A stretch of DNA of 64,000 nucleotides from Keratinibaculum paraultunense (GTDB lineage: Bacteria > Bacillota > Clostridia > Tissierellales > Tepidimicrobiaceae). The number at the start of each line of letters is the position of its first letter. Position 1 is the stretch's first letter. Shown here one piece after another: positions 30,322-55,260 of the stretch. The DNA lies in NCBI RefSeq assembly GCF_016767175.1, contig NZ_CP068564.1, forward strand, positions 248,001 to 312,000, given 5' to 3'. The translations under genes and the position numbers were made by a program. A model generated the notes under the pieces. It did not search any database. It worked only from the letters and a program-made list of their open reading frames with translations, and was not told the origin of the DNA.

Positions 30322-30349
30322 AATATTTTTAGCATTTGGGGGTTTGACA

Positions 30350-31087
30350 ATGAAAGAAATAATTACTTTTAATCCTATTGAATCTGATAAGGTGGTGTTG
30401 CCTATACAATATAATCATATGGTTCAAGCTATGATATATAGCTTATTAGATGAGGAACTTGCAGATTTTTTACATGAAGAGGGTTTTCAAAATAAAAATA
30501 GGACATTTAAGATGTTCACTTTTTCTAGAATAAATGGGAGATATATTTTAAAAAAGGATGATGGGTTAATAATATTTGATGGTCCAATAAAGCTTACTGT
30601 ATCTTCTCATTTCGACGATTTTTCTAACTCTATAGGAAATAGTTTTTTAAAACGTCAAAGGGTACAATTAGGAAATAATTATTTAGAAGTGAAACAATTA
30701 GCAGTGGAAAAGGAAAATGTAAATAGCGAAGAAATAAAGGTTCGAACTTTATCTCCTATATCTACATATAGTACTTTATACAGAAAAGATGGCAAAAAGT
30801 TTACTTATTATTTTAATCCAATGGAAGAAGAATTTTCAGAGACTATAGAAAATAATCTAAAAAATAAGTATAGGGCTTTTTATTCAGAGGAAGCTCCTGA
30901 GGGAGAAATAAATATAAAACCCATAGGAGAACCTAGATTAGCTGTTGTAAAATACAAGGGTTTTGTAATAAAAGGATATACAGGCAAATTTTCCATAACA
31001 GGCCCAATTCCACTACTTCAATTAGGTATAGATACAGGATTAGGCAGTAAAAATAGCCAAGGGTTTGGCTGTGTTAAATTAATATAG
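30350..31087 (+). CDS. cas6: Cas6 pre-crRNA endoribonuclease (type I-B)
   Basis: ATG 30350 sits 7 bases after GGGGGT; a TTG at 30344 is too close. The 245-residue RAMP protein has two ferredoxin-like halves and the C-terminal glycine-rich loop (GLGSKNSQGFGCVKL) that defines Cas6. It cuts repeats in the long precursor RNA, leaving an 8-nt 5' handle, here expected to be AUUGAAAC. It heads an operon of eight cas genes. Confidence 0.9.
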   Translation: MKEIITFNPIESDKVVLPIQYNHMVQAMIYSLLDEELADFLHEEGFQNKNRTFKMFTFSRINGRYILKKDDGLIIFDGPIKLTVSSHFDDFSNSIGNSFLKRQRVQLGNNYLEVKQLAVEKENVNSEEIKVRTLSPISTYSTLYRKDGKKFTYYFNPMEEEFSETIENNLKNKYRAFYSEEAPEGEINIKPIGEPRLAVVKYKGFVIKGYTGKFSITGPIPLLQLGIDTGLGSKNSQGFGCVKLI

Positions 31088-31102
31088 AAATATATTAGGG
31101 AG

Positions 31103-33052
31103 GTGAGAAAGATTATTGAAGGAATAATTCAAATTGGAGATACACTGCTAAAATTTAATGATCCAGTACTAAATTTTATAGAAGAACTAAGACCTACTAG
31201 AAGGAATAAGCAGCTTAATGTATTAAAATTTAATTTTTTACCTGATGAAGGAAAATTAGAAATTGATGTAAAAGAAGAAATGGATGATAATACAGCAGAA
31301 AAATATACTTTTGTAGGTTCAGCTAGTGGCCCAAATTCTCCCCAATGGTATGTATCAAGTACATCTAGCAAGTATCATTTGACAGAAACTTTCTATAATT
31401 TATCTCAAATAAAATTTGGCGAAGAATTAGATGAAAAAATTAATAAGGTTTTTGAAAATTTTTATGTAGATCTTGGAGAGGAACTAAAAACCAAGTACAG
31501 ATATGTTTTAGATCTATATAAATGTAGGATAATAGATGTACCAATGGAACAATTATTTGAAGAAGTAAAAAAAGAAGTTGGAGATGTAAAAGATTTAGGG
31601 AAAAATTTTTCAGATAAATTGTTAGAAATATTTGAAGATTATTTAAAAGAGGAAAAAGGGATAAATCCAAATGAAATAGGTTTATACACTATATTCATAG
31701 ACGGAGTTCCTTTATCAAATTTTAAAGAATACAAGGAAGCTGTAGTAGAATCTAAAAAACCGAAATCTACAGGAAAAAAAGGGGATAAGGGAGTATGCAG
31801 TATTTGTGGTACAGATGAAAATGTATCATCAGATATGGCTAATACAAAAATTAAATATTACACTACCAATCAAGTTATATTTGCAAGTGAATTATCTAGG
31901 AATAATTATCATAAAAATATGCAAATGTGCTTAGATTGTATGTTTAAATATTTAGCAGGGGAAAATTACGTTATAAATAATTTAAAAACAAGACTTGCAG
32001 CGTTTGATTTATACATAATTCCCCAATTTATTTATGGACAACCTCTTACTGAAGAAGATTTGGATATTGCTACCAGTAGAATAATAAATTCCTTTAATAC
32101 AGTAAAATCCTATGAAGGACTTGAGAAGTTAAGGGAAGAAATAAAAGGTTCCATTGATTTAAGAGGTGAAGATAGCTATTTTCTTTTGAATTTTATGTTT
32201 TTTAAAAGTAGCCAAAAGGCAACTAAAATACAGAGGCTTATAAAGGATGTGCAGCCTTCGATTTTTGAAGAAATTAGAATAGCTTCTAATAAATCTAGAG
32301 AGGATTTTCAAAATATATTAGGGAAAAAATTTGGAAGTGCTATAACTTTAGCTACTGTTTATTACATGAATCCCATAAGAATAAGAGAAGGGGAAGCTAC
32401 TCAATATAGGGATGTACTTGAGACTTATGATGCGGTACTAACAGGGAAAAAATTGAACAAAAAACATCTTATAAAAAATTTAATAGAATGTATTAAAATA
32501 ATAAAATTTGATAAGGGATCCTACAATATAAATCCTAGCGAAGAGATACTAGAATTTTATATGATGAGAGCCAATATGTACATTAAATTTTTAGAATATA
32601 TGGGCTGTTTAGAGGAGGGGAGAAGTTTGGATGTATCTCAATTAAAAGTGAAAGATCATATAAAAAACTATATTGAAAAAATGGGCTATAATGAACAAGA
32701 AACAGCAATGTTTTTATTAGGTTATTTAATAGGAGAAATAGGGAATGTTCAATATAGGAAGACAGAAGAAGGGACAAAACCTATACTCAATAAGCTTAAT
32801 TTCAATGGTTTAGATAGGCAAAAAATTATAAGGCTTACAAAAGATGTGTTTGATAAGCTAAATCAAGAAAAGATTAGGCAATACAATGAAGTTACCTTTT
32901 TTGAATTGAAAAGGCTTTTAGATTTAAATATTGATAATTGGAAATTGAACAAAGATGAAAGCTTGTTCTATGTGCTTTCAGGATATTCTTATGCAACTAC
33001 AATACCAATGTTAAGGGAAAAGGAGGATGTTTCAAATGACAGTGACAAATAA
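31103..33052 (+). CDS. cas8b: Cas8b (Csh1/TM1802-type) Cascade large subunit
   Basis: The 649-residue protein has a zinc-finger-like motif with CSIC near residue 232 and CLDC near 276, as in TM1802-type Cas8b. It is the large subunit that recognises the PAM and recruits Cas3. The start is odd. GTG 31103 lies inside the strong GGGAGGTGA ribosome binding site, while an in-frame ATT at 31112 is 8 bases downstream at ideal spacing. Translation may therefore begin at AUU. The 3' end overlaps cas7. Confidence 0.88.
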   Translation: MRKIIEGIIQIGDTLLKFNDPVLNFIEELRPTRRNKQLNVLKFNFLPDEGKLEIDVKEEMDDNTAEKYTFVGSASGPNSPQWYVSSTSSKYHLTETFYNLSQIKFGEELDEKINKVFENFYVDLGEELKTKYRYVLDLYKCRIIDVPMEQLFEEVKKEVGDVKDLGKNFSDKLLEIFEDYLKEEKGINPNEIGLYTIFIDGVPLSNFKEYKEAVVESKKPKSTGKKGDKGVCSICGTDENVSSDMANTKIKYYTTNQVIFASELSRNNYHKNMQMCLDCMFKYLAGENYVINNLKTRLAAFDLYIIPQFIYGQPLTEEDLDIATSRIINSFNTVKSYEGLEKLREEIKGSIDLRGEDSYFLLNFMFFKSSQKATKIQRLIKDVQPSIFEEIRIASNKSREDFQNILGKKFGSAITLATVYYMNPIRIREGEATQYRDVLETYDAVLTGKKLNKKHLIKNLIECIKIIKFDKGSYNINPSEEILEFYMMRANMYIKFLEYMGCLEEGRSLDVSQLKVKDHIKNYIEKMGYNEQETAMFLLGYLIGEIGNVQYRKTEEGTKPILNKLNFNGLDRQKIIRLTKDVFDKLNQEKIRQYNEVTFFELKRLLDLNIDNWKLNKDESLFYVLSGYSYATTIPMLREKEDVSNDSDK

Positions 33053-33917
33053 TGAAATCTTATATATTTATGATGCTAAGTTGACTAATCCTAATGGAGA
33101 TCCAGATGAAGAAAATAGACCACGTATGGATTATGAAAGAGAGATGAATTTAGTATCAGATTTAAGACTTAAAAGATATATAAGGGATTATTTATTACTT
33201 AAAGGTCATGATATATTTGTACGTAGGGTGGATGATAAACCAGTAACAGCTGATAAGAGAATAAAAGATCTAGAGGATTCTTCAAATGAGTGGATATTGG
33301 AAAACTTAACAGATGTGAGAATGTTTGGTGCTACTATGACAGTTAAGGGAGACAATAAAACCTTTATAGGACCTATTCAGTTTAATTGGGGATATTCTCT
33401 AAACAAGGTGGAGCTTTTAGAAGCTAGTATTACTTCTCATTTTTCTACAAGAGAGAGTAGTACTCAAGGTACAATGGGGAAGGATTTTAGAGTAAAATAT
33501 TCTTTAATTGCTTTTTCAGGAATAGTAAGTGGTAATAGAGCTAAGAAAACCATGTTAAAAGATGAAGACTTAATTTTACTTGATGAAGCTATGAAATATG
33601 CTATCCCAAATCTTGCTACAAGGAGTAAAATAGGGCAATATCCAAGATTTTATATGAGAGTAGAATATATAGACAATGAAACTGTGTTAGGTGATTATAG
33701 GGATTTTATAGAACTTAAAGAAGAAGTGCCTAATATTAGAGACATAAATGAATGTTCTTTAATAATAGATGAATTGGTAGAATTATTAGAGAAAAACAAA
33801 GAAAAGATAAATGCTGTACATTATTTTATAGATGAAAATTTAAAACTTACATTAGATGATAATTATGTTAGTTTTGAGGAGGCATTTGGTAAGTTACCAT
33901 TAAAATTGGTAGAATAG
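33036..33917 (+). CDS. cas7: Cas7b (Csh2) Cascade backbone subunit
   Basis: ATG 33036 is preferred because AAAGGAGG ends 9 bases before it; ATG 33027 directly abuts that site. The 293-residue RAMP protein begins with the Csh2/Cst2-like sentence IYDAKLTNPNGDPDEENRPRM and contains the central VRMFGATM. Six or so copies line the crRNA in the interference complex. The start overlaps the end of cas8b by 17 bases and the stop lies 10 bases before the cas5 start, showing tight coupling. Confidence 0.9.
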   Translation: MTVTNNEILYIYDAKLTNPNGDPDEENRPRMDYEREMNLVSDLRLKRYIRDYLLLKGHDIFVRRVDDKPVTADKRIKDLEDSSNEWILENLTDVRMFGATMTVKGDNKTFIGPIQFNWGYSLNKVELLEASITSHFSTRESSTQGTMGKDFRVKYSLIAFSGIVSGNRAKKTMLKDEDLILLDEAMKYAIPNLATRSKIGQYPRFYMRVEYIDNETVLGDYRDFIELKEEVPNIRDINECSLIIDELVELLEKNKEKINAVHYFIDENLKLTLDDNYVSFEEAFGKLPLKLVE

Positions 33918-33927
33918 GGTGATGATT

Positions 33928-34644
33928 ATGACGATGATTATATTTGACCTTTGGGGGAAATTTGCACATTTTAGAAAATTTTATACTAATTCTTCTTCAT
34001 TATCCTATTTAGTGCCACCTAGAACCACTATTGAAGGGATGGTAGCTGCACTACTAGGTCTTGAAAGGGACAGCTATTATGAATTATTAAGTTCTGAAAA
34101 ATTACATATAGCAGTTAGAAAGATTGGAAAGTCAAAGAAAATAATGCAATCCCTTAATTATATAAGAGCTACTGGCCCTAAGGAATTGATAATTCAAAAA
34201 AATCATACACAAATTCCATTTGAATTGCTTACAGGATATGATAATTTACGTTATAGAATTTATTTAACCCATGAAGATGAAAATATATTAAGTGAAATAG
34301 AACAAAGGATAATTAACAATAAACCTGTGTATCCCCTATATTTTGGGAGTGCTCCTTTTAGTTGCTATATAGATTATATAGATAAAATGGAATGGTGTTG
34401 GAATGATAGTAGTGGATATGAAATTGTATCTACAGTTATTAATAATGATAAAATTGAAGAAATAGATATCAAAAATATAGAAGGGGCTTTGATTAAAGAA
34501 AGAATGCCAAGGGATTTTGAAGAAAATAGGATAATTAAAGAAGTAACTACCTATATTTATGAAGAAGAAGGTAAGCCTTTAAGAGTTAAAATTAATGGAA
34601 AATATGCACGGCTTTCTAATGGGGAAAATGTGGTATTTTTATAG
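33928..34644 (+). CDS. cas5: Cas5b Cascade subunit
   Basis: I chose ATG 33928, 5-6 bases after GGGTGAT; GTG 33919 and ATG 33922 overlap that site. The ~238-residue RAMP protein begins IIFDLWGKFAHFRKFYTNSSSLSY, then LVPPRTTIEGMVAALLGLERD, the classic Cas5 N-terminus. It binds the 5' handle of the crRNA next to Cas8b. Confidence 0.88.
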   Translation: MTMIIFDLWGKFAHFRKFYTNSSSLSYLVPPRTTIEGMVAALLGLERDSYYELLSSEKLHIAVRKIGKSKKIMQSLNYIRATGPKELIIQKNHTQIPFELLTGYDNLRYRIYLTHEDENILSEIEQRIINNKPVYPLYFGSAPFSCYIDYIDKMEWCWNDSSGYEIVSTVINNDKIEEIDIKNIEGALIKERMPRDFEENRIIKEVTTYIYEEEGKPLRVKINGKYARLSNGENVVFL

Positions 34645-34656
34645 AAGGTGATATGA

Positions 34657-36969
34657 ATGAATTATTATTCCCATCCAGAAAAAACAATGTTAGAACATTT
34701 AACGGAGGTTAAAGAGCTTTCAATATCTAAAATTCCAAATGAGCTTAAAGAAGCATATGAAATAGTGGCAATATGTCATGATTTTGGGAAATACACTTCC
34801 TATTTTCAAAGGTATTTAAGGCATAATAAAAAATCTAAGTTATCTAATCATAGCTTTATATCTGCTACATTTGGAGGTTATATAGGATTAAAAAGATTTG
34901 GGGAAGGGAATATCCTTCCCTTGATCATATATAATACCATATTGCACCATCATGGTAATTTAAAAAACTTTTCAGTAAATCTTCCTAGTACATTTAAAAA
35001 GGTGTCCAGAACTGATTTTTCTGTAAATGTATTGGAAAAAGTAGAGATAGCTTATGAGCAAATTAATGATATGAAGGGAAATATAAATTTTATAAAACCA
35101 GATATGGAAAAACTGGGTATATTAGAAGAATTTATTAAGTTTACTCAAGAAAAAAATATAATAGAAGAAACACTAAGCAAATTAAAAAAATTAGATCTTT
35201 TATCCATTAGAGGATTAAAATCTGAAAAAAACTATTTTATTCATCAAATATTATATTCTGCATTGATTTCTGCAGATAAAATAAGTGCCTCTAATACTTT
35301 TTTGCCTAAAGAAATGCATGGTGATTATGAAATATTAGATTCTATTAGAGAAGATAAATTTGGCAAACCAACAAAGGCAATAGATAAGATAAGAACTGAT
35401 ATATACACAAAGGTAATAAAAAGCATTGAAGAAAATTATGACAAATCTAAAATATTTTCTATCACAGCTCCTACAGGAACAGGGAAAACTATAACAGGTT
35501 TTTTTGCAGCTTTAAAATTGAAAGAACTATTAGGAGATAATCGAAAAATTATATATTCATTACCTTTTACTTCTATTATAGAGCAAAATTATGATGTGTT
35601 GTTTGATGTATTCAGAGGAATAGAAGATTTCGAACAAAATTATAGTAGTTATATTATTAAACATCATAATTTATCTACTGTTGAATATGAAAGTGAATAC
35701 AGGGATTATACAAAGACAGAAGCAGAATTATTAATAGAAAACTGGTCTAGTGGAGTTGTAGTTACTACATTTGTTCAACTTTTAGAAACTTTAGTTGGAG
35801 CCAGAAATCGTATGCTTAAGAAGTTTAATGCCATAAAGGGTTCTATAATTATATTGGATGAAATACAAGCTATAGATATAAAATATTTTGATTTAGTTGA
35901 TTACATATTGAGAAAAGCATGTGAATACTTAGATATTAGAATAATCATAATGACTGCTACTAAACCACTGATTTTAACCGACGCATTAGAATTATTAGAA
36001 GACAATGAGAAGTATTTTAAAAAATTTGGAAGAACTAAGCTTGTACCGAAAATAGAAAAGGTAACTATAGATGAATTTGTAGATGAGTTTATTAGTAATA
36101 TAGAAGAAAAATCCTACATGATAGTTTGCAATACAATTAGACAATCTTTAGAAATGTATGACAAATTAAAAGATATAGATAGAGATGTATACTATTTATC
36201 TACTAATATCCTTCCTATTCATAGAAGAAATAGAATAAAAGAAATAGAAAAAAGATTAAAAAATAATGATAATATAATTCTTGTTTCAACCCAAGTAGTA
36301 GAAGCGGGAGTAGATTTAGATTTTGATGTTGTTATAAGAGACATAGGCCCTATAGATTCCATTATTCAATGTGCTGGTAGATGTAATAGAAATAGTAGAA
36401 ACAAAATAGGAAATGTATACATATATTTTATGATAGATGATAATGAAAATAATTTTGGGAAATATGTTTATGGGAATACAATAATGGATGTATCTAAAGA
36501 GGTTTTAGAAGGTAAAAAAGAAATATTGGAAGAAGATTATTTTAAATTAATAAATGAATATTTTAATGAAATAAAACAAAACAAATCCCAGAGAGTGTCA
36601 AATGGTTTAATAGATGCTATAGAAAAGTTGGATTTTTCTGAAGGAGAGTATTCCATAGACAAATTTTCACTGATTCAAAATAATCCTGGATATATTGATG
36701 TGTTTTTTATATATGATGATAGGGCAGAAACTGCATATGAAATTTTTTTGAATTTGTCAAACATTAAGGATTTTAATAAAAAAAGAGAACAATATTTGAA
36801 GATTCAAAGGGATATGAAAGATTACACATTATCTATTCCTAAAAAATATTTTAGAAGTTTTGTTGCAGATAGAGGTATGATTTTTCTCCCTAGAGAAGGG
36901 ATAGAGGAGTTTTATGATGATGAAACTGGTTTTAAAAGGGATAAAGAGGATGAATGTATGATATTTTAG
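34657..36969 (+). CDS. cas3: Cas3 helicase-nuclease (HD plus DExD/H)
   Basis: The 770-residue protein has an N-terminal HD nuclease (HPEKTMLEHL, then ICHDFGKYTSYFQ near residue 45, and a later HHHG). A superfamily 2 helicase follows: Walker A APTGTGKT near residue 270, DEIQ near 401, TATKP, and motif VI in QCAGRCNRN near 570. Cas3 is recruited to R-loops made by Cascade and degrades target DNA. All key motifs look intact. AGAAGGTGAT gives the start at 34657. Confidence 0.92.
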   Translation: MNYYSHPEKTMLEHLTEVKELSISKIPNELKEAYEIVAICHDFGKYTSYFQRYLRHNKKSKLSNHSFISATFGGYIGLKRFGEGNILPLIIYNTILHHHGNLKNFSVNLPSTFKKVSRTDFSVNVLEKVEIAYEQINDMKGNINFIKPDMEKLGILEEFIKFTQEKNIIEETLSKLKKLDLLSIRGLKSEKNYFIHQILYSALISADKISASNTFLPKEMHGDYEILDSIREDKFGKPTKAIDKIRTDIYTKVIKSIEENYDKSKIFSITAPTGTGKTITGFFAALKLKELLGDNRKIIYSLPFTSIIEQNYDVLFDVFRGIEDFEQNYSSYIIKHHNLSTVEYESEYRDYTKTEAELLIENWSSGVVVTTFVQLLETLVGARNRMLKKFNAIKGSIIILDEIQAIDIKYFDLVDYILRKACEYLDIRIIIMTATKPLILTDALELLEDNEKYFKKFGRTKLVPKIEKVTIDEFVDEFISNIEEKSYMIVCNTIRQSLEMYDKLKDIDRDVYYLSTNILPIHRRNRIKEIEKRLKNNDNIILVSTQVVEAGVDLDFDVVIRDIGPIDSIIQCAGRCNRNSRNKIGNVYIYFMIDDNENNFGKYVYGNTIMDVSKEVLEGKKEILEEDYFKLINEYFNEIKQNKSQRVSNGLIDAIEKLDFSEGEYSIDKFSLIQNNPGYIDVFFIYDDRAETAYEIFLNLSNIKDFNKKREQYLKIQRDMKDYTLSIPKKYFRSFVADRGMIFLPREGIEEFYDDETGFKRDKEDECMIF

Positions 36970-36979
36970 AGGTGATATA

Positions 36980-37480
36980 TTGGAGGACTTAAATGTAAAT
37001 GGAACGTTAATATGGTATTACTATATCTGTAAAAGAGAAGTTTGGCTTATGGCTCGAAATATTGTTCCTGATCAAGATAATATAAATATAGATATAGGAC
37101 GTTTTATTCATGAAACTTCTTTCCAAAGAAAAAGAAAAGAAATTTCCATTGGTAATGTTAAAGTAGATTTAATTGATAAAAAAGGTGAATATTTGATGAT
37201 TGGAGAAATAAAAAAGACTTCAAAATTTGTAGAAAGTTCAAGAATGCAATTAGCTTATTATCTATTGGAACTTAAAAGACATGGTTTAAAAGGAAAAGGG
37301 GTACTTACCTTTCCTAAAGAAAGAAAACGTGAGATAATAGAGCTTAATGATGAACTTATAGAAGAGTTAGAAAAGGTAGAAAAAGATATTTTAAGAATAT
37401 GCTATGAGTCTTATCCTCCAAAACCTGTAAAAATAAATATGTGTAAGAATTGTGCATACAATGAATTTTGTTGGTCATAA
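36980..37480 (+). CDS. cas4: Cas4 exonuclease (adaptation)
   Basis: The 166-residue RecB-like nuclease starts at TTG 36980, 5-6 bases after AGAGGTGA. Cys residues in YICKREVW and three in CKNCAYNEFC would hold the 4Fe-4S cluster. The nuclease core runs through GRFIHETSF, VDLIDKKGEY and GEIKKT. Cas4 trims pre-spacers and helps select the PAM. It lies 10 bases after cas3 and 17 bases before cas1. Confidence 0.9.
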   Translation: MEDLNVNGTLIWYYYICKREVWLMARNIVPDQDNINIDIGRFIHETSFQRKRKEISIGNVKVDLIDKKGEYLMIGEIKKTSKFVESSRMQLAYYLLELKRHGLKGKGVLTFPKERKREIIELNDELIEELEKVEKDILRICYESYPPKPVKINMCKNCAYNEFCWS

Positions 37481-37497
37481 AAAGGAGTGATAAGATT

Positions 37498-38490
37498 ATG
37501 AAAAAAACTTTATATATTTTTAATGATGGAGAAATAAAAAGAAAGGACAATACTATTTATTTTGAAACGGATAAAAACAAAAGATATATTCCCATAGAAG
37601 ATATAAGCGATATTTTTGTATTTGGTGAATTAACTTTAAATAAAAGTTTTTTAACATATATATCTCAAAAAGAGATACTTATGCATTTTTTCAACTATTA
37701 CGGTTATTATTCAGGAACTTACTATCCAAGAGAACATTTAAATTCTGGGTATATGATACTTATGCAAGCAGAGCATTATTTAGATGAAAATAAAAGGATG
37801 ATTATTGCTAGTAAATTTGTAGATGGAAGTAGTCAAAATATGCTCAATGTAATTAGATACTACAAAAATAGAGGGAAAGATCTAGAGGATATTGAAAATG
37901 CAATAGTATCCTTACAAGAGAAAATACCAGATTGTGAGGATACTAATCATCTAATGGCTATTGAAGGAAACATGAGGGATATGTATTATAAGGCTTTTGA
38001 TGAAATAATAGATGATGAAGATTTTACATTTGAAAAAAGAACTAGAAGGCCACCAAAAAATGAGTTGAATGCATTAATAAGTTTTGGAAATTCCTTACTA
38101 TATGTTTTGGTTCTAAGTGAAATATATAAAACCCATATAGATCCTAGAATAGGCTATTTACATACAACAAATTTTAGAAGATTTACATTAAATTTAGATG
38201 TGGCAGAAATTTTCAAACCTATTATTATAGATAGAATTATTTTTACTTTAATAAGAAAAAATATGATAACAAAAGATGATTTTGAACCTGATATGGGCGG
38301 TATATTATTAAAGGAAAAAGGGAAAAAGACTTTTGTGGAGCAATTTGATAAAAAACTGGTTTCCACTATAAAACATAAAGAATTAGGTAGAAATGTATCC
38401 TATAGACGATTAATAAGAATGGAATTATATAAGTTAGAAAAGCATTTAATCGGAGAAGAAAAGTATGAACCTTATATATCAAGATGGTAA
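37498..38490 (+). CDS. cas1: Cas1 integrase
   Basis: ATG 37498 lies 10 bases after AAAGGAGTG; the open frame extends back to 37468 into cas4 but without a site. The 330-residue protein is a full-length Cas1 (ISDIFVFGELTLNKSFLTYIS, EGNMRDMYYKAF with a metal-binding Glu, GYLHTTNFRRFTLNLDVAEIFKP with His and the second Glu). With Cas2 it inserts new spacers at the leader end. All metal ligands are visible. Confidence 0.93.
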   Translation: MKKTLYIFNDGEIKRKDNTIYFETDKNKRYIPIEDISDIFVFGELTLNKSFLTYISQKEILMHFFNYYGYYSGTYYPREHLNSGYMILMQAEHYLDENKRMIIASKFVDGSSQNMLNVIRYYKNRGKDLEDIENAIVSLQEKIPDCEDTNHLMAIEGNMRDMYYKAFDEIIDDEDFTFEKRTRRPPKNELNALISFGNSLLYVLVLSEIYKTHIDPRIGYLHTTNFRRFTLNLDVAEIFKPIIIDRIIFTLIRKNMITKDDFEPDMGGILLKEKGKKTFVEQFDKKLVSTIKHKELGRNVSYRRLIRMELYKLEKHLIGEEKYEPYISRW

Positions 38491-38502
38491 TGGGTGATAT
38501 AT

Positions 38503-38766
38503 GTGTTTGTTATTTTAGTTTATGATATAGAAGTAAAAAGAGTTGCAAAAGTTTTAAAGACTTGCAGAAAATATTTATATTGGGTTCAAAACTCAGTATT
38601 TGAAGGGGAAATATCTGAAGCTAATTTGACAAAATTAAAACTTGAATTAAAATCAATAATAGATGAAGAAAAGGATTCTGTAATAATATATTCTTTTAGA
38701 ACTACTAAATATTCAAATGCGGAAATAATGGGTATAAAAAAAGGTGGAGAGGATAACTTCTTATAA
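38503..38766 (+). CDS. cas2: Cas2 (adaptation)
   Basis: GTG 38503 (giving MFVILVYDIEVKRVAKVLK, 87 residues) is at good spacing from GGGTGA. GTG 38494 would add three residues but overlaps that site. The ferredoxin-like Cas2 fold and the conserved Asp in VYDI are present, with CRKYLYWVQNSVFEGE typical of type I-B. It is the last cas gene and ends 485 bases before the first repeat. Confidence 0.9.
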   Translation: MFVILVYDIEVKRVAKVLKTCRKYLYWVQNSVFEGEISEANLTKLKLELKSIIDEEKDSVIIYSFRTTKYSNAEIMGIKKGGEDNFL

Positions 38767-42200: not shown

Positions 42201-45200
42201 GCTGTAGGTTAGTAATTGCAATGGTTTATAGTCTACCTATAAGGAATTGAAACAAAAAAGAAAATGATGATACAAAATTTGCTTTGGCGGAAGTTTATAG
42301 TCTACCTATAAGGAATTGAAACACCATATCCAAAAACCTCTGCCAACCCATATCTAGGTTTATAGTCTACCTATAAGGAATTGAAACTCGGGCGTGTGGG
42401 TCGGCTGCAGGGTTCGCTTATTTGGTTTATAGTCTACCTATAAGGAATTGAAACGTAGGTTCATTCTCGAAAACTCAGCTACAAAGCACGTTTATAGTCT
42501 ACCTATAAGGAATTGAAACCTAACGGACCTATGCTTGCAATGGTAGGAGATAACCCTGTTTATAGTCTACCTATAAGGAATTGAAACCAGGAGAAAAAGT
42601 AGAAAATTATTTTATATCCACATCATGTTTATAGTCTACCTATAAGGAATTGAAACTGGTAAAACCAATACTTTCCAGTTCTCAAACTTTTAAAGTTTAT
42701 AGTCTACCTATAAGGAATTGAAACCTACTGAAACCATTAATATAACGCAAGCTGCTAATACGTTTATAGTCTACCTATAAGGAATTGAAACCAGATACAG
42801 GCTTGAGAGTCATGCATGGTTCATCTAGTTTATAGTCTACCTATAAGGAATTGAAACTTGGCTTTGCTGAGTTAATTACATCTATATCTATGGTGTTTAT
42901 AGTCTACCTATAAGGAATTGAAACGGTCTAGGTACTGTTTAAGATGACGTATTTCTGATTCGTTTATAGTCTACCTATAAGGAATTGAAACAACAATAGC
43001 AAATAAGCGAACCCCGCACTCGACCTACGTTTATAGTCTACCTATAAGGAATTGAAACGAGACACATAAGGCAGAAAGTGTGTATGAAGGTGCAGTTTAT
43101 AGTCTACCTATAAGGAATTGAAACTCTACACGAACACCATAAATTTTTTGCGCCGTTGGAGTAGTTTATAGTCTACCTATAAGGAATTGAAACCCGAGGT
43201 ACCTAGATATGCACCAATGTAGATTTTTCCGTTTATAGTCTACCTATAAGGAATTGAAACCAACATGAGACTTTTCTAAATTTTCAATGGTTCCAGGTTT
43301 ATAGTCTACCTATAAGGAATTGAAACTTTACATCGCCAAATTGTCCCATCCACCAGCCTCTAGTTTATAGTCTACCTATAAGGAATTGAAACGCACCATT
43401 TGATGAATTGAATATCCTTCAACAGAATTGTTTATAGTCTACCTATAAGGAATTGAAACAAGCTATAGGAAAAATATACACAATGATAACTGGAAGGTTT
43501 ATAGTCTACCTATAAGGAATTGAAACATCCTCCTCGCCAATAATTGGTACCTTGAGCATTTCTCGTTTATAGTCTACCTATAAGGAATTGAAACACATTT
43601 GCCCCGGTTGTGGGTGTTCAATTGAAGGAAGTTTATAGTCTACCTATAAGGAATTGAAACTAATATACCAAATATTGTATTCTGGAATGTAGACAGTTTA
43701 TAGTCTACCTATAAGGAATTGAAACAAAATCTTTCACTCATTATAAACCCTCCCTTTATAATTTGTTTATAGTCTACCTATAAGGAATTGAAACGAGTTA
43801 AAAAAAGAACTAAAAGAGAAGTATACAGAAAGTTTATAGTCTACCTATAAGGAATTGAAACTAAAAAAATAAGGTAGTTTTTGCTAGAGATTTTGTTGGT
43901 TTATAGTCTACCTATAAGGAATTGAAACGATTAAGAACACCATCAGAAATATCATATTCAAAAAGTTTATAGTCTACCTATAAGGAATTGAAACAAACTG
44001 CCTCCTCTAATTCTGTTAATTCGATAAATCTGTTTATAGTCTACCTATAAGGAATTGAAACTATATTACACATTACCACTTAGTAGTGAATTATTTGAAG
44101 TTTATAGTCTACCTATAAGGAATTGAAACGAGAAAATACCATATACACCGGATAGTTGTTTCATTAGTTTATAGTCTACCTATAAGGAATTGAAACCGAT
44201 TGGGCAAATAAAAGAATTGACGCCCCAGAAAAAGTTTATAGTCTACCTATAAGGAATTGAAACTTGCAACGGTAATTGAAAGGGCAGCAGATGTTTCACT
44301 GTTTATAGTCTACCTATAAGGAATTGAAACATAATAGGGAATTTAAATAAGTAGCCGGAAGTATGGAGGTTATAGTCTACCTATAAGGAATTGAAACATC
44401 CTTCCGCTGCCATAGATCTTATCTGCCCTATAGGTTTATAGTCTACCTATAAGGAATTGAAACGGGAAGACTGGCGTACAACATAAAGCAGGCGGTTGGA
44501 GTTTATAGTCTACCTATAAGGAATTGAAACTTTCTGTAGCCTTCAATGTATCACCCCCTTCCTCTCCCGTTTATAGTCTACCTATAAGGAATTGAAACTT
44601 TCGACTTGACAATATATCACAAATATCGCAAACTTGTTTATAGTCTACCTATAAGGAATTGAAACGCATATCTATTTCACTCATAAGCATAGATACCATC
44701 AATGGTTTATAGTCTACCTATAAGGAATTGAAACATTTTAGTCCCGCCTCTAGGTTGGTATTCTCTATTATCGTTTATAGTCTACCTATAAGGAATTGAA
44801 ACAAAGTATTTTCTGAAAGCGAAAAAATCTATATCACCGTTTATAGTCTACCTATAAGGAATTGAAACTTTTTAGCTTTTTTAATGTTTAAAAGTTCTAA
44901 TCCTGTTTATAGTCTACCTATAAGGAATTGAAACTTATACCAATGCAACCAGATTAATAACTAAAAACAGAGTTTATAGTCTACCTATAAGGAATTGAAA
45001 CATTCTCCTTCTATGAAAATGACAACAACCGGGAAGAAGTTTATAGTCTACCTATAAGGAATTGAAACAATAAAAAGGAGGTGTGTTAAATTGGTTGAAA
45101 GACATGTTTATAGTCTACCTATAAGGAATTGAAACTACACTAGATGAAGTGCCAAAATTGTTCAACTTAAAAGTTTATAGTCTACCTATAAGGAATTGAA

Positions 45201-46333
45201 ACAGGAAAATTGGCTCATATCCTACCAATGAGAATGAGTTTATAGTCTACCTATAAGGAATTGAAACTTTCCCATAGACAATATATTCCGTAAAATAAAA
45301 AAGAGTTTATAGTCTACCTATAAGGAATTGAAACTTGTACAATCTTACTTCCTCTATTTCCTCATCTGTGTTTATAGTCTACCTATAAGGAATTGAAACG
45401 TGAATGAATATCATGGAGTGAGGTTAGAAAACCTGTTTATAGTCTACCTATAAGGAATTGAAACTAGATAATAGGAATGAATTGTCTATTGAAGATATTG
45501 GTTTATAGTCTACCTATAAGGAATTGAAACCTTCCACTATATACATTACCATTGTTATCTACAGCAAGTTTATAGTCTACCTATAAGGAATTGAAACATT
45601 ATATGTGCTAATATGATAGTAAGCAGAAATGTAAGTTTATAGTCTACCTATAAGGAATTGAAACTGGCAGACTTGGCTAGTATATTAGGCTTGGAAGTGG
45701 GGTTTATAGTCTACCTATAAGGAATTGAAACACTTACCATTTCATGTAGTTTTAATTTAGTATCTTTGTTTATAGTCTACCTATAAGGAATTGAAACTGT
45801 ATTTGAAGTTGATGAAATTATAGAAATAGAAGAAATGTTTATAGTCTACCTATAAGGAATTGAAACAAGGTATCAGATGGAGGGTTTGAATGGAGAAATG
45901 CTAGTTTATAGTCTACCTATAAGGAATTGAAACTATTTGGATTTTTGAATTGAATTTTACTTTCTTTTAGTTTATAGTCTACCTATAAGGAATTGAAACT
46001 AGTGTATGGGAAAATTACGGAAAGTGTAGAATCTGTTTATAGTCTACCTATAAGGAATTGAAACACATGAATATAGAGGAATTAAAATTAAGTGATGTTG
46101 TGTTTATAGTCTACCTATAAGGAATTGAAACGATCATGACAATGCAAACCGTGAAAGCATAGTTATCTGTTTATAGTCTACCTATAAGGAATTGAAACTA
46201 GGAAGGTGATAAAGTGAAGAAGTCTTATTATGCAGTGTTTATAGTCTACCTATAAGGAATTGAAACCTCCAGTTAGTAAATCTTTAGCATCTCCCATTTT
46301 TTGGTTTATAGTCTACCTATAAGGAATTGAAAC

Positions 46334-46778
46334 ATATTAGGCCTAAGTATCAAAGGGAATTTATTTATAAGTTTATAGTCTACCTATAAGGAATTGAAAC
46401 TACTACTACAGAGGCCCCAAATGGCTCTAATTTGACTGAGTTTATAGTCTACCTATAAGGAATTGAAACCTACAAAAATAGTAGTAAAAGAGGATGGAGA
46501 GATTATTGTTTATAGTCTACCTATAAGGAATTGAAACAGCTAACTGGCTTGTTGTTGTTCATGTTTTGAACATCTGTTTATAGTCTACCTATAAGGAATT
46601 GAAACTAGAAGGAATATCAGCAGGATCCTAGTAACAGGTGTGGGTTTATAGTCTACCTATAAGGAATTGAAACTGGAATAATTCCTCTTTCGATACCTCG
46701 TCCAAGGTGGGTTTATAGTCTACCTATAAGGAATTGAAACCTCTAGCTTCCATATCTTCTATTATTTCTATATAAGTT
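46334..46778 (+). repeat. Duplicated spacer block, copy 1
   Basis: Seven spacers in the order A-B-C-D-F-G-H. A begins ATATTAGGCC, B TACTACTACA, C CTACAAAAAT, D AGCTAACTGG, F TAGAAGGAAT, G TGGAATAATT and H CTCTAGCTTC. All except B recur in copy 2. Confidence 0.9.
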
Positions 46779-47982
46779 GTTTATAGTCTACCTATAAGGA
46801 ATTGAAACCAGGAACATAGGCAATTTCTCAAAGTTTCCGTTATTTCGTTTATAGTCTACCTATAAGGAATTGAAACTCCTAGCCTTCTATTCCTGTTCCT
46901 ACTTCTAGCACTGGTTTATAGTCTACCTATAAGGAATTGAAACTCCTGTTCTATTCTATCAAGCCTTTTACCATGTTCCTTGTTTATAGTCTACCTATAA
47001 GGAATTGAAACCTAATAGTATAGGAGGTGGCAGGATGGTAATAAAAATGTTTATAGTCTACCTATAAGGAATTGAAACTCTAGATTGCAGCCTGCTCTTT
47101 TTTCTAGTTCTTCATAGTTTATAGTCTACCTATAAGGAATTGAAACACAAATATAATAGCTAAAGCTGTAGGCGTATCAATGTTTATAGTCTACCTATAA
47201 GGAATTGAAACCTAATACATGCATTTTATAGTTTGGATTAATTTTGCTGTTTATAGTCTACCTATAAGGAATTGAAACAAAATATGGAAGTACGTGTTAC
47301 AAAATCATTAGCAAAGTTTATAGTCTACCTATAAGGAATTGAAACTCATAGCTGGGGCTTTGCAAAGTGATACGCTCCAATAGTTTATAGTCTACCTATA
47401 AGGAATTGAAACAGTGGAACTCTATCTACTTTAAAATTAAATCTTCCTCCGTTTATAGTCTACCTATAAGGAATTGAAACACTGTAATTAAACCAAATAT
47501 TAATGACAGGGTGGCGTTTATAGTCTACCTATAAGGAATTGAAACGAAGCAAAAGAAACACTAGACAAAGTAAAAGAAGCTTGTTTATAGTCTACCTATA
47601 AGGAATTGAAACTCAAACATTTGAGAAAGGTCAAGAAACAAAGAAACGTTTATAGTCTACCTATAAGGAATTGAAACTCCCTAACTTCTTGTAAGTCTCT
47701 CCAAAACTATCTCCGTTTATAGTCTACCTATAAGGAATTGAAACAGTGCTTTTGGAAGTGGATTTTTGAAAGCTAGTGCTGTTTATAGTCTACCTATAAG
47801 GAATTGAAACCACCTCCTTGTGTTTCCATTTTGAAACCTCTCAATTAGTTTATAGTCTACCTATAAGGAATTGAAACCAAAAACGGGGAATAAGTTAATT
47901 TATAGTAAGTATAGGTTTATAGTCTACCTATAAGGAATTGAAACTAGGTCTTCCTATTTCGTCCCTCAACGCTTGCAATTTA

Positions 47983-48411
47983 GTTGATAGTCTACCTATA
48001 AGGAATTGAAACAACTACCTCTTGGACAATAAATTTAGGTCTAAGTCTAAGTTGATAGTCTACCTATAAGGAATTGAAACTGGCAAAAAGGTGAGACGAC
48101 TAAAATTAATACTCCGTTGATAGTCTACCTATAAGGAATTGAAACACGATGCCATGAAAGATAGCCAAGATGGAAAGGTTAGGTTGATAGTCTACCTATA
48201 AGGAATTGAAACATTCTTGGTTGCCGAATTTAAAGGCAGGGTGCTTTTTGTTGATAGTCTACCTATAAGGAATTGAAACCAAAAAATCCAGGTTCAGTAG
48301 GGTGATCTATAAATTTGTTGATAGTCTACCTATAAGGAATTGAAACTATAAAAACAAAAGAACTTCCTCCATTTATTGAAGGTTGATAGTCTACCTATAA
48401 GGAATTGAAAC
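47983..48411 (+). repeat. Run of seven variant repeats (T4 to G)
   Basis: Repeats starting at 47983, 48051, 48116, 48183, 48250, 48317 and 48382 all begin GTTGATAG instead of GTTTATAG, with the rest unchanged. Repeats on both sides are standard. Confidence 0.92.
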
Positions 48412-48855
48412 ATATTAGGCCTAAGTATCAAAGGGAATTTATTTATAAGTTTATAGTCTACCTATAAGGAATTGAAACCTACAAAAATAGTAGTAAAAGA
48501 GGATGGAGAGATTATTGTTTATAGTCTACCTATAAGGAATTGAAACAGCTAACTGGCTTGTTGTTGTTCATGTTTTGAACATCTGTTTATAGTCTACCTA
48601 TAAGGAATTGAAACAAAATAAACCACCTATGGATAAGTGGAAGTACTTCAAAGTTTATAGTCTACCTATAAGGAATTGAAACTAGAAGGAATATCAGCAG
48701 GATCCTAGTAACAGGTGTGGGTTTATAGTCTACCTATAAGGAATTGAAACTGGAATAATTCCTCTTTCGATACCTCGTCCAAGGTGGGTTTATAGTCTAC
48801 CTATAAGGAATTGAAACCTCTAGCTTCCATATCTTCTATTATTTCTATATAAGTT
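48412..48855 (+). repeat. Duplicated spacer block, copy 2
   Basis: Spacers A-C-D-E-F-G-H, identical by eye to copy 1 for the six shared ones. B is missing, and E (begins AAAATAAACC, 48615-48652) is present only here. The block starts immediately after the last variant repeat. Confidence 0.9.
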
Positions 48856-49656
48856 GTTTATAGTCTACCTATAAGGAATTGAAACCATCACTCATTTTAC
48901 TGCTCCTTTCTTATTACACAGTTTATAGTCTACCTATAAGGAATTGAAACACCCAACTTTCAATGTTGTCTACTCTACTTTGCAAAGAGTTTATAGTCTA
49001 CCTATAAGGAATTGAAACAAAGTTTTCATATAGTTCTCACCACCTTGGAAGGTTCTGGGTTTATAGTCTACCTATAAGGAATTGAAACGGAAATCATTGT
49101 ATATTTCTTCGTTATGTCGGTACTCGTTTATAGTCTACCTATAAGGAATTGAAACGAAGTTTTTAAAAAACTAGGTGTAAGTGAAAAACATAGTTTATAG
49201 TCTACCTATAAGGAATTGAAACACTTATAAAAGCTAAGTTAAGAGGGAGAGGAACAACAACGTTTATAGTCTACCTATAAGGAATTGAAACTAAAAGCAG
49301 GACCTTTTTTAATCAGACCTCCATACAAGTTTATAGTCTACCTATAAGGAATTGAAACTTTTGAAAAAGGAAATAGTACAAGCAGTATTAAATAGGTTTA
49401 TAGTCTACCTATAAGGAATTGAAACTCAGAACGAATGTTCTGGGCGGTAGAACGTATGAACGTTTATAGTCTACCTATAAGGAATTGAAACGTGGGTAGG
49501 TCGTTCTACTGTTTTTTACATTAGGTTTTAGTTTATAGTCTACCTATAAGGAATTGAAACTATCTTTTTTTATTTATTAGACCTTTTTCTTTATAGTTTA
49601 TAGTCTACCTATAAGGAACTGAAACCCTAACAAGATATAGTATGGAGGTGGGAGTT

Positions 49657-50022
49657 ATGAGTTTCTGGGAGAAGTTTAAAGAAGATTTTAACAAACAAGT
49701 AGAAAATGAAATGGAAAAATCGGAGCAAAGAAAAAAACAAAAGAAAATAGAAAAGCAAGAATATAAAAATAGAATAAAAGAAATGAAAAAAGAAAACAAA
49801 TACAAAAAGAAACAAATGGATATAGAAGGGATAGCTTATTGTCCTAAATGTAAAAGCACTTCTATTCAGTATATAGAGAGAAGAAAAAGATTAAGCTTAG
49901 GTAGGGCAGTAGTAGGTACAGCATTGTTCAGTCCTTTAGGTGGGGCAGTTGGAGCAGTAACAAGCAAAAAATACAAAGGTTTTATAAAATGCTTGAATTG
50001 TGGGCATAAATGGAAAATGTAA
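49657..50022 (+). CDS. Small coiled-coil zinc-ribbon protein lodged in the end of the array
   Basis: ATG 49657 follows GGAGGTGGGAG; an earlier ATG at 49642 lies ahead of that site. The 121-residue protein has a highly charged, probably coiled-coil N-terminal half (Lys/Glu-rich, about 8-60). A zinc ribbon made of CPKC and a distant CLNC (about residues 63-119) follows, split by a Gly/Ala-rich hydrophobic segment (GRAVVGTALFSPLGGAVGAV). Similar small zinc-ribbon proteins occur in phages and mobile DNA. It lies 31 bases after the last array repeat, has its own terminator, and an orphan CRISPR repeat follows. Function is unknown. Confidence 0.7.
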   Translation: MSFWEKFKEDFNKQVENEMEKSEQRKKQKKIEKQEYKNRIKEMKKENKYKKKQMDIEGIAYCPKCKSTSIQYIERRKRLSLGRAVVGTALFSPLGGAVGAVTSKKYKGFIKCLNCGHKWKM

Positions 50023-50036
50023 GTTAAAATAAACTA

Positions 50037-50067
50037 AGCACTTACTATTTAGTAGATGCTTTTTTTA
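50037..50067 (+). terminator. Terminator of the zinc-ribbon gene
   Basis: AGCA..TACTA and TAGTA..TGCT (50037-50060) form a two-part stem followed by a run of T residues. It lies inside the 465-base insert between the last two CRISPR repeats. Confidence 0.7.
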
Positions 50068-50090
50068 TGCCTAAAAAGGTGGTAAGTAAA

Positions 50091-50120
50091 GTTTATAGTC
50101 TACTTATAAGGAATTGAAAC
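50091..50120 (+). repeat. Orphan CRISPR repeat
   Basis: A 30-bp copy of the array repeat with one change (TACC to TACT at repeat position 14), in the same orientation, 466 bases beyond the last array repeat. It abuts the broken end of a transposase remnant. Confidence 0.92.
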
Positions 50121-50346
50121 TTAAATTTCTTTTTCTTCTTCATAAGTCCATTTATTTGTAGGTTTATTATATGAATTTTTCTTATTCTGATTGTCTAATC
50201 CATTGATATATAGTAGTTCTAGGTATATTTAGCTTCCTTAAAAGACTTGTAGATGTATTATCTGTTGGTGGCTCCAGCTTTTTTAACACAGATGCCTTAA
50301 ATTCTTTGGAATAGGTTCTTTTCTTATTATTTTTAGAAATAATCAT
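50121..50346 (-). pseudogene. Transposase OrfA-like helix-turn-helix remnant
   Basis: On the minus strand, ATG 50346 after AAGGAG opens a 54-codon frame containing KKRTYSKEFKASVLKKLE and LLRKLNIPRTTIYQWIRQSE, the N-terminal helix-turn-helix of IS3-like transposases. It stops at 50182. The adjacent frame continues (NKKNSYNKPTNKWTYEEEKE) up to the orphan CRISPR repeat, where homology ends. It is frameshifted and truncated, clearly dead. Confidence 0.6.
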
Positions 50347-50404
50347 TCTCCTTAGGTTATTATCGTAATTTCATTATACATTATTTTTCTATACGACAAC
50401 CATC

Positions 50405-53388: not shown

Positions 53389-53790
53389 ATGTTTATAAAA
53401 ATAGATTTTGAATCGGATATGCCCATATATGAACAATTGAGGCGACAGATAATAAAAGGGATTGCTAAAGGTGATTTGGAAAAAGGAGAACAATTGCCTT
53501 CAGTCAGACAACTAGCAGAGGATATTGGAATAAATCTTCATACAGTAAACAAAACATACAATATATTAAAAGAAGAAGGATATTTAGCAATAGATAGAAG
53601 AAAAGGGGCAATGGTAAAGGATATTATGCCTATGGTAGATGAAGAGTATATTAATAACCTTTATTCTGAATTGGAATATATAATAGCTAATTCTTACTGT
53701 AGGGGAATATCAAAGGAAGAGTTTTTAAAGCTTTGTGAAGATATTTATGATAGATTGGAAAATAAACAAGGGGGGGAAAAATATGACTGA
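53389..53790 (+). CDS. GntR family regulator, YtrA subfamily
   Basis: The 133-residue protein has an N-terminal winged helix (PIYEQLRRQIIKGIAKGDLE, LPSVRQLAEDIGINLHTVNKTYNILKEEGYL) and a short C-terminal helical tail. This is the compact YtrA type that controls a linked ABC transporter. It heads a five-gene operon with membrane proteins, an ATPase and a permease, and overlaps the next gene by 8 bases. Confidence 0.88.
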   Translation: MFIKIDFESDMPIYEQLRRQIIKGIAKGDLEKGEQLPSVRQLAEDIGINLHTVNKTYNILKEEGYLAIDRRKGAMVKDIMPMVDEEYINNLYSELEYIIANSYCRGISKEEFLKLCEDIYDRLENKQGGEKYD

Positions 53791-54901
53791 AAGAGTATAT
53801 TTAATGATAATATATACTTCGACACTTTTAATACTACTTATACTTCAAATGCTTATGCCTAAATTAATTAGGAAAAATATATTGTTTGGAGTTTCAATAC
53901 CAACGAATAAACTAGAGGATAAAGATATCAAGCTTATGTACAAAGGTTATAAAAAGGATAATTTAATCATAGGAGTACCAATGCTAATAATAGTTTCCTA
54001 TTTGCTCTATATTTTCATAAATTCTAAACTACAAGTGATATTAATGTTTTCGTATATAGGAGTATTGTTTATCATCTACTTAAGATATAATTCTAAGGCT
54101 AAAAATTTAAAGAGAGCAAAGGGTTGGGATAAACTCGGTAGGAAAATAGTAGTGGTAGATATGAAATACAGCAGGGATAAATCTAAGGTAGGGAATATAT
54201 CCCCTCTTTGGTTTTTAATCCCCTTAATCATTACCCTATTCAATTTCATACTAGCTTTTACTGTATATCCTTCTTTACCAAATAAGCTCCCTACTCATTG
54301 GAATTTTCAAGGGGAAATTACCACCTATAGTAATAAATCCTATGGTGTAGTACTTTTGCTACCAATAGTTCAACTGGGAATGGTAGGTATGTTCTATCTT
54401 ATCTACTGGATGATAAAGAAGACAAAACAACAGATAGACCCAAATAATCCAGAAGAATCTTTAAAGAAAAGTATTATATTTAAAAAAGCTTGGTCTATAT
54501 ATCTTTTAATTCTTCTAATGTTGATTACAATAGAATTTAGCGTATTGAGTTTACTTACCTATGGAATAATATTTGAAACCACTAGAACGGTAGATGTTTT
54601 AAACTGGATTATACTAATATTTTCAATTGCAGGTGGATTTGTATTGAGTATTAAATTAGGCCAAGGAGGAGAAAAATTAAAACTAAAAGAAGAAGATAAG
54701 GAAGAAATAATCTATAGAAAAGATGACGATGAAATGTGGAAGCTTGGCAATACCATATATTATAATCCAGAGGATTCATCTGTATTTGTAGAAAAGCGCT
54801 TTGGAATAGGTTGGACAGTCAATGCTGGAAGGCCATTGGGACTGTTTCTCTTAATACTTCCCATTATCATGATAATTTTGACCTTTATATTTATTAGGTA
54901 G
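53783..54901 (+). CDS. DUF1648/DUF5808 membrane protein
   Basis: ATG 53783 follows a run GGGGGGG and overlaps the gntR stop; a longer frame back to 53735 lies inside gntR and lacks a site. The 372-residue protein has about 8 hydrophobic segments, the DUF1648 signature LPTHWNFQGE in the middle and a C-terminal part (WKLGNTIYYNPEDSSVFVEKR) typical of DUF5808. Such proteins are constant partners of YtrA-type regulators; the function is not established. Confidence 0.75.
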   Translation: MTERVYLMIIYTSTLLILLILQMLMPKLIRKNILFGVSIPTNKLEDKDIKLMYKGYKKDNLIIGVPMLIIVSYLLYIFINSKLQVILMFSYIGVLFIIYLRYNSKAKNLKRAKGWDKLGRKIVVVDMKYSRDKSKVGNISPLWFLIPLIITLFNFILAFTVYPSLPNKLPTHWNFQGEITTYSNKSYGVVLLLPIVQLGMVGMFYLIYWMIKKTKQQIDPNNPEESLKKSIIFKKAWSIYLLILLMLITIEFSVLSLLTYGIIFETTRTVDVLNWIILIFSIAGGFVLSIKLGQGGEKLKLKEEDKEEIIYRKDDDEMWKLGNTIYYNPEDSSVFVEKRFGIGWTVNAGRPLGLFLLILPIIMIILTFIFIR

Positions 54902-54921
54902 TAAAAAGAAGGAGGGGTAGC

Positions 54922-55260
54922 ATGTTTTTGTTTTGTATACTCATGTTGTTAGTAGGTGGATATTTTATCACAATGGGAATATACTATTTAACTGCCAAAA
55001 CCCCAAGGATTGCTAATCTATATGCAAATACTAGGAGATTGACAGAAGCAGATATAATAGACAAAGAAGCTTATAATAATATTTGTGGGAAGATATTTAT
55101 CCTATGGGGAGTTTTGAACTCCTTAATAGGAATAGTTTCTAATTTTATGGGAGATTATTTTATTTTTGTGATTATATTAACACCCATTACCAATATAATT
55201 ATGATGGGTATGTATAATATAAAAGCTACTAGATATATAAGGAGGGAAAGGGATTGCTAA
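54922..55260 (+). CDS. Small DUF3784-like membrane protein
   Basis: The 112-residue product has three hydrophobic helices with a conserved-looking charged stretch between the first and second (NTRRLTEADIIDKEAYN). It lies 20 bases after the DUF1648 gene with GGAGGGGT ahead of ATG, and overlaps the start of the ATPase gene. Assignment to DUF3784 rests on size, topology and context. Confidence 0.55.
   Translation: MFLFCILMLLVGGYFITMGIYYLTAKTPRIANLYANTRRLTEADIIDKEAYNNICGKIFILWGVLNSLIGIVSNFMGDYFIFVIILTPITNIIMMGMYNIKATRYIRRERDC

Follow-up and report, generated by a model that had tools for sequence, protein, structure and literature searches.

How does a complete phage gene come to lie between two repeats of a CRISPR array, in the place of a spacer, and does its host have a use for it? 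We were led to this question by the trailer end of an array in Keratinibaculum paraultunense (henceforth G000), which lies in the 64-kb stretch of DNA that was analyzed here (the window, in whose positions all coordinates are given).

The CRISPR locus and its gene-sized last unit

The CRISPR locus in the window is of type I-B, and its operon was delineated by NCBIfam matches as eight genes on the + strand (30344..38766), namely cas6, cas8b, cas7, cas5, cas3, cas4, cas1 and cas2. Cas1, Cas2 and Cas4 are thus all encoded there, and no reverse transcriptase is found among the eight genes. The array adjoins cas2 with its leader, at the low end, and extends on the + strand from 39252 to 50120 as 156 repeats of 30 bp with the consensus GTTTATAGTCTACCTATAAGGAATTGAAAC. 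This direction was derived from leader-like sequence that is alike before all three arrays of the genome and from the altered last repeats; the Rfam model CRISPR-DR2 places the repeat on the - strand. The two further arrays contain 127 and 69 repeats, and the three together account for 352 of the 353 repeat matches in the genome, the one left over being a reverse match that was not located.

The length of spacers is thought to be set by a Cas1-Cas2 ruler along with trimming partners such as Cas4. Every one of the 348 ordinary spacers in the three arrays (154, 126 and 68, respectively) is 33-41 nt long, and a single interval of 465 nt is present among their 349 inter-repeat intervals. With 156 repeats in this array and 348 ordinary spacers set against that one interval in three arrays, the giant interval is not a matter of chance.

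This interval belongs to the last unit of the array, which comprises a repeat, 465 bp and another repeat in the same orientation. The first of these repeats (49596..49625, + strand) is the AACTGAAAC variant, common to a second genome of the genus (G001), and has one mismatch, AATTG to AACTG; the second (50091..50120, + strand) is the last of the array and likewise has one mismatch, CTACC to CTACT. A previous reading of this DNA from its letters alone (the sequence-only reading) had described a gene in a segment bounded by just such a pair of repeats, and this description is borne out. The segment itself (49626..50090, + strand) is identified by alignment with a prophage as DNA from a phage tail region, reaching from just past the promoter of a moron to the start codon of the tape measure gene. 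It contains a GGAGG-type ribosome-binding site, GGAGGTGGG (49644..49652, + strand), which is similar in the prophage; the moron ORF (49657..50022, + strand), coding for a protein of 121 aa with a charged N-terminal helix and a zinc ribbon (CPKC...CLNCG) that has an inserted Gly-rich hydrophobic stretch; and a terminator-like phage hairpin with one C.A mismatch in its stem (50036..50061, + strand). Like an ordinary type I-B spacer, the segment is phage DNA and hence of mobile-element origin, and is present once between two repeats, as the sole content of the interval. Unlike one, it measures 465 nt against 33-41 nt and includes a complete gene; at this length it would be too long for a normal crRNA. 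It is a piece of a tailed-phage genome sitting in spacer position. As far as the literature that we searched reached, an element of this kind, more than ten times too long for its position, has not been described: in openly licensed literature on overlong spacers, genes in arrays and long integration substrates we found no report of a gene-sized spacer, though the wording used by others may differ.

Directly after the last repeat, alignment with G001 reveals the remnant of a transposase-like helix-turn-helix gene on the - strand (50121..50360). In G001 this corresponds to an open frame of 98 aa, which matches CENP-B_N with E 5.9e-6 (above the cut-off) and HTH_Tnp_1 with E 1.2e-4 (just below the cut-off). 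The decayed gene ends right at the last repeat in both genomes and may mark how the trailer formed.

Some further observations concern the ordinary part of the arrays. A block of spacers is present twice, at 46348-46810 and 48426-48887, as identical stretches about 2.08 kb apart; each copy has one spacer that is absent from the other, pointing to internal recombination of the array. At 47983-48411, seven repeats in a row read GTTGATAG and not GTTTATAG. The GTTGATAG variant is the common form at the array end of G001, which suggests that this run came from an exchange of arrays between the G000 and G001 lineages. Spacer R_100, from the minus-strand array of G000 (L046), matches an apparent tRNA gene (recognized by eye) in G009 at 32 of 38 nt, and its source is possibly a phage attachment site or a tRNA-carrying element.

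The second genome, G001, represents another species of the genus, and its contig JAAYFV010000197.1 has exactly 465 bp between two repeats at the same trailer. This unit differs from that of G000 by 1 substitution in 465, which lies outside the ORF, and its first repeat has the same AACTG mismatch; the last repeats differ at 3 of 30 positions and the trailers by 23 substitutions in 231. The arrays of G001 are broken over contigs; 10 repeats could be read in two contigs, the Rfam model matches 15 in this genome, and none of the 7 ordinary spacers thus read matches any of the 348 spacers of G000. With these 7 read, the giant is the only unit known to be common to the arrays of the two genomes, and it closes both arrays, as the result of either inheritance or exchange. 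Comparison of the trailer in a relative, which the sequence-only reading had advised, finds gene and array together in G001, and not the gene in place without the array. The divergence between the two genomes around the locus is a mosaic of 0 to 14%, with the nearby BrnQ gene at 0.2% and the GntR gene at 0%, and the near identity of the giant therefore proves neither recent transfer nor selection. We rejected its conservation as proof of selection on these grounds. In the same neighborhood, two genes of 388 and 112 aa (53735-55260) show dS of about 0.5 between the genomes, against 0-0.08 in the other genes compared, and are probably a replaced segment.

A phage moron and its slot among the tail genes

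Searches of 61 genomes, comprising its own and those of relatives, recovered the closest match outside the genus in a prophage on a contig of Clostridium sp. Cult3 (G011). The two align over 456 bp with 87.5% identity. The homology spans bases 3-458 of the 465, stopping 2 bp short of the first repeat and 7 bp short of the second, and the leftover columns align loosely with the prophage up to the start codon of its tape measure gene. Hence, the interval consists almost entirely of phage DNA, and neither a remnant of an ordinary spacer nor a split spacer is visible in this alignment. The prophage genes are arranged in the order portal, major head, connector, major tail, two small genes, zinc-ribbon gene and tape measure. 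The alignment and these tail-gene neighbors strongly support the earlier suggestion that the gene may be phage-derived, and we regard the origin of the segment from a phage moron as nearly certain. In the 61 genomes the 121-aa protein has five matches: two in arrays (one genus and the same giant unit), two in prophages and one in a chromosomal setting, with none of these CRISPR repeats within the surrounding 3.3 kb. This distribution lends no support to the proposal that the protein is an accessory to the CRISPR system. A homologue combining TM2-like and zinc-ribbon parts in G009 (L004, L008) lies in a chromosomal setting beside a membrane dipeptidase-like gene (recognized by eye), with no phage genes in view.

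A donor closer than 88% was not found in searches of viral contigs, genome contigs, phage records and family genomes. In viral contigs, a protein search gave 7 loci with at best 56% identity, and a degenerate DNA pattern gave 0 matches; genome contigs yielded at least 8 loci, the two best among the matches listed being G001 and G011; phage records returned 1 weak protein match and 0 by DNA; and the DNA of 20 family genomes offered, beyond G000, G001, the G011 prophage and G009, only short matches of about 25-100 bp. No relative of the tape measure protein of the G011 prophage was detected in the G000 genome at E <= 1e-30. Spacer T_9 of G000 and one spacer of G001 match the contig of the G011 prophage (L006, L050) with 8 mismatches each, which hints at past encounters of both hosts with relatives of the donor phage.

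The ORF in the array retains the four zinc-ribbon cysteines and the other residues that are invariant in a 12-member alignment, in which the array copy is included. Compared with the prophage copy, it shows dS of 0.64, dN of 0.064 and dN/dS of 0.10, a ratio that reflects mostly phage evolution. None of the curated zinc-ribbon families of Pfam scored above its cut-off, the best being Zn_ribbon_TFIIS with 19.2 bits against a cut-off of 21; the protein does match phrog_2546, to which no function is assigned, with E 2.8e-19. An AlphaFold2 model reached a mean pLDDT of 72 and a pTM of 0.37, with poor confidence in the Gly-rich part, and a Foldseek search of PDB with this model found nothing at E <= 0.001, its highest-ranking hits being for the most part zinc ribbons from transcription and translation complexes; this structural comparison carries no weight in our reading. 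The charged helix, split zinc ribbon and Gly-rich stretch that had been noticed in the sequence-only reading fit a family of phage proteins.

To define the setting of this family we surveyed the slot that separates the chaperone-like gene from the tape measure gene, using as the former marker the second of the two small G011 genes. We take these two genes to be putative tail-assembly chaperones by their position and the parallel with HK97, PHROGs assigning them no function. Merging by contig and identical slot reduced 35 rows to 21 distinct phages or prophages; L019, L079 and L013, which also have homologues near tail genes, stayed outside the 21, as the marker queries did not pass. The slot is empty in 5 of the 21 (37-61 bp) and occupied in 16, of which 15 hold one main ORF and one (G036, 2383 bp) has the zinc-ribbon gene and others. 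The zinc-ribbon family is found in 8 of the 16 occupied slots, in some with other N-terminal parts; six of these eight are in the alignment, and L082 and L118 were judged by eye. The other occupants are bPH_2 proteins in two slots (both by Pfam), tRNA_anti-like proteins in two (one by Pfam, the other by near-identical sequence), an Ltp-type exclusion lipoprotein in one (L074; Pfam PF07553, E 2.2e-48) and, in the remaining three, membrane-anchored, multi-pass membrane and SHOCT-like proteins, these three by eye only. The slots of L060, L061, L073, L074, L076 and L105 contain unrelated small genes that are mostly membrane-associated. The slot thus houses an optional gene between conserved phage genes, as expected of a moron, with contents of several unrelated kinds. 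A promoter-like pair (TTG in the first box, 17-bp spacing,.A...T, and at least 8 of 12 consensus bases) precedes the gene in 9 of the 16 occupied slots, where 200 shuffles averaged 1.05 and never exceeded 5, and a hairpin with a T run precedes the tape measure gene in 15 of the 16 and also in 2 of the 5 empty slots; the criteria for both were fixed after the slot sequences had been inspected. Judged by these counts, the gene together with its promoter has the behavior of a moron, while the hairpin, seen in empty slots too, could be a feature of the slot itself.

The annotation of HK97 has the same order, with the gp13/14 chaperone, gp15 as "moron product", a putative terminator and the gp16 tape measure. 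The likeness here is one of position and no sequence relationship is claimed: gp15 (189-bp CDS) is a predicted inner membrane protein, whereas the array gene codes for a zinc ribbon with a Gly-rich hydrophobic insert. According to passages of PMC10883804, gp15 and Ltp block DNA injection, and phages escape through changes in the tape measure or swaps of tail genes. Ltp of TP-J34, as described in passages of PMC3952083, acts by blocking the injection of DNA, and a case is made for its being a moron; its gene lies in the lysogeny module, unlike the captured gene with its tail-slot position. The Ltp-type lipoprotein (PF07553) of L074 occupies the same slot in a related phage, but belongs to a protein family other than that of the zinc ribbon. 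Tab (tail assembly blocker) of phage JBD26 is a prophage moron whose effect has been connected with the tape measure protein of the incoming phage (passages of PMC10884400); it has 83 aa, is encoded between terminase genes and is likened to the captured gene by description. The gene order of HK97, the block of injection by gp15 and Ltp with escape via tape measure and tail genes, and the tie of Tab to the tape measure protein together lead us to infer, from slot position and slot mates, that the captured gene is of a putative exclusion type.

Capture, recombination and insertion

We think it very probable that the segment stands in place of a spacer rather than having been inserted into one. 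The explanation that we find best overall, and to which we would give an even chance, is that of a phage moron in spacer position without its promoter, acquired by overlong capture and most likely a passenger. In such an event Cas1-Cas2(-Cas4) would have attached an overlong prespacer by its two ends to either side of a repeat, early in the life of the array, and the giant unit would then have survived at the trailer end because units there are seldom lost. Direct capture by Cas1-Cas2 fits the single clean interval and, taken for itself, falls a little short of an even chance. Passages of PMC5059440 treat the Cas1-Cas2 ruler as a determinant of spacer length and attribute errors of length in type I-F spacers to the PAM-distal cut, and passages of PMC8034620 report that, in vitro, substrates are integrated in unprocessed form by a type II-A Cas1-Cas2 lacking its trimming partner. 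That Cas1-Cas2 might integrate hundreds of bp is an extrapolation from this last result, given there in passages without substrate lengths. Casposons, transposons integrated by Cas1, are a case of long DNA joined by a Cas1 relative at spacer-like target sites (passages of PMC6452270); the 465-bp segment differs from them in having neither casposase nor polymerase and one small ORF.

The sequence-only reading had proposed a recombination that moved a distant repeat, which is not needed. Recombination between two spacers and phage DNA is nevertheless a live option. Here, two ordinary spacers of like orientation, taken from sites about 390 bp apart in one phage, would have recombined with phage DNA so that everything between them was replaced, leaving repeat, phage stretch and repeat. 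Such an event would give exact, repeat-bounded ends without any unusual act of Cas1-Cas2; overlapping spacers show that these arrays took several spacers from one phage region, and the last 39 nt of the segment are of an allowed spacer length and have TTA before them. Yet spacers of 39 nt are uncommon, with 15 of 154 in the array at 39252-50120, a TTA would turn up by chance at one of the nine allowed positions with a probability of about 0.24, homology of about 37 bp would have had to suffice for recombination at both ends, and 0 of 354 ordinary spacers match the segment, the best having 11 mismatches. The PAM itself is provisional: where spacers share an exact overlap of 15-16 nt, the protospacers deduced from them have TTA in front in 3 of 3 cases, but one 14-nt overlap with one mismatch reads TTC and GCA, and the comparison of 354 spacers (348 from G000 and 6 from G001) with the fetched loci gave CTC and GTC at two protospacers with 4 mismatches, and TTA, TTT, ATT and AGA at four weak ones with 8-9 mismatches. 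At the left edge of the segment the PAM cannot be read, since the closest match found is about 88% identical; this nearest phage has ATAAG before the edge. Stretches of the G000 arrays gave no protospacers in phage records and, among plasmids, four records at 60-80% identity that are perhaps other CRISPR arrays. No spacer among the 354 targets the captured gene, the closest showing 11 mismatches in 37-38 nt, where the best hits in each of four control stretches show 9-13. On balance we hold the bridging of two spacers to be possible, if rather doubtful.

The other route that had been suggested, in which a mobile element or gene entered a spacer already present at the trailer end, would have precedents in the family, where the fetched arrays have 195 ordinary spacers and five long intervals (four in G012 and one in G015) that contain transposase genes or runs of N, and it might be linked with the transposase-like remnant just beyond the last repeat. 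However, the readable long intervals of G012 carry IS transposase genes, whereas the 465 bp hold one + strand ORF of at least 60 aa and no transposase, and no remnant of a split spacer is visible around phage homology that comes within 2 and 7 bp of the repeats, making this route highly improbable. We find it scarcely credible that the gene was there first and the repeats arose or moved around it, or that the unit is an error of assembly. The latter notion could draw on its being a single copy in a one-contig assembly, but two genomes with diverged flanks share the same 465 bp and the same repeat mismatch, and the neighbors of the gene in the prophages are tail genes and not this trailer.

Expression, use to the host and significance

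The array segment begins about 3 nt past the -10 box of the prophage promoter, so that the promoter is lost while the ribosome-binding site, ORF and hairpin are kept. The promoter-like site of the G011 prophage reads TTGAAT-17-TATTAT; a general scan of the region gave 5 sites against 2.5 +/- 1.9 in shuffles. On the + strand of the array, the scan found no promoter-like site from 49400 to the ORF, and a criterion of 16-18-bp spacing found none in the 100 bp before the ORF. As for the "own terminator" of the sequence-only reading, the hairpin is present but is phage-derived and weakened by the C.A mismatch: its energy is -10.6 kcal/mol in the array against -14.4 kcal/mol in the prophage, and a strict terminator scan detects the prophage hairpin and misses the array copy. 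Moreover, as 2 of 5 empty-slot phages also carry such a hairpin, a link of the hairpin with the gene need not be assumed. Having lost its promoter, the gene would have to be expressed either from a chance promoter or by read-through of the pre-crRNA over about 10 kb. Any protein would come from such read-through of the roughly 10-kb transcript, from which Cas6, by cutting at both flanking repeats, would release a single-gene mRNA. If the protein is made, its likeliest action would be to exclude phages with related tape measure proteins in the manner of a prophage. Arguing from the missing promoter alone, we consider the giant unit a probable passenger, with little expression, rather than a selected one.

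The converse reading, in which the host keeps the moron because its protein protects against phages and the array serves as the site of its expression, is in our view unlikely. It can call on the complete ORF and ribosome-binding site in the direction of the array, the retained zinc-binding cysteines, the dN/dS of 0.10 on the path to the prophage copy, the presence of the unit in two species with the ORF unchanged, and the superinfection-exclusion genes in the homologous slot of L074 (by family) and of HK97. It has to contend with the lost promoter and weakened hairpin, with a dN/dS that covers mostly phage time, and with an identity between G000 and G001 that is not special in a mosaic region. 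Random 465-bp windows of the prophage contig include the whole captured gene in 0.23% of cases, a figure that only hints at selection, being computed after the fact, and 15% of such windows hold some complete gene in this orientation (by crude gene calls). The bolder proposition that adaptation stores whole genes, with an exclusion gene that was captured, is transcribed from the leader and released by Cas6 as a single-gene mRNA, and is retained through selection, seems to us decidedly unlikely. Were it true, RNA-guided and protein-based immunity would be given by one array, in one locus.

A 465-bp phage gene in the spacer position of two species implies one of two things: a failure of the ruler by a factor of more than ten, with a product that persists, or an exchange of DNA between arrays and phages by recombination via the spacers. 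Ruler failure and spacer-mediated recombination would both be routes by which a host takes up phage genes, and the gene captured here came from a slot that in other phages holds defense genes. The find would gain most in weight with a demonstration of direct capture or of a function. The slot between the chaperone-like and tape measure genes is, for its part, a possible place to look for new exclusion systems.
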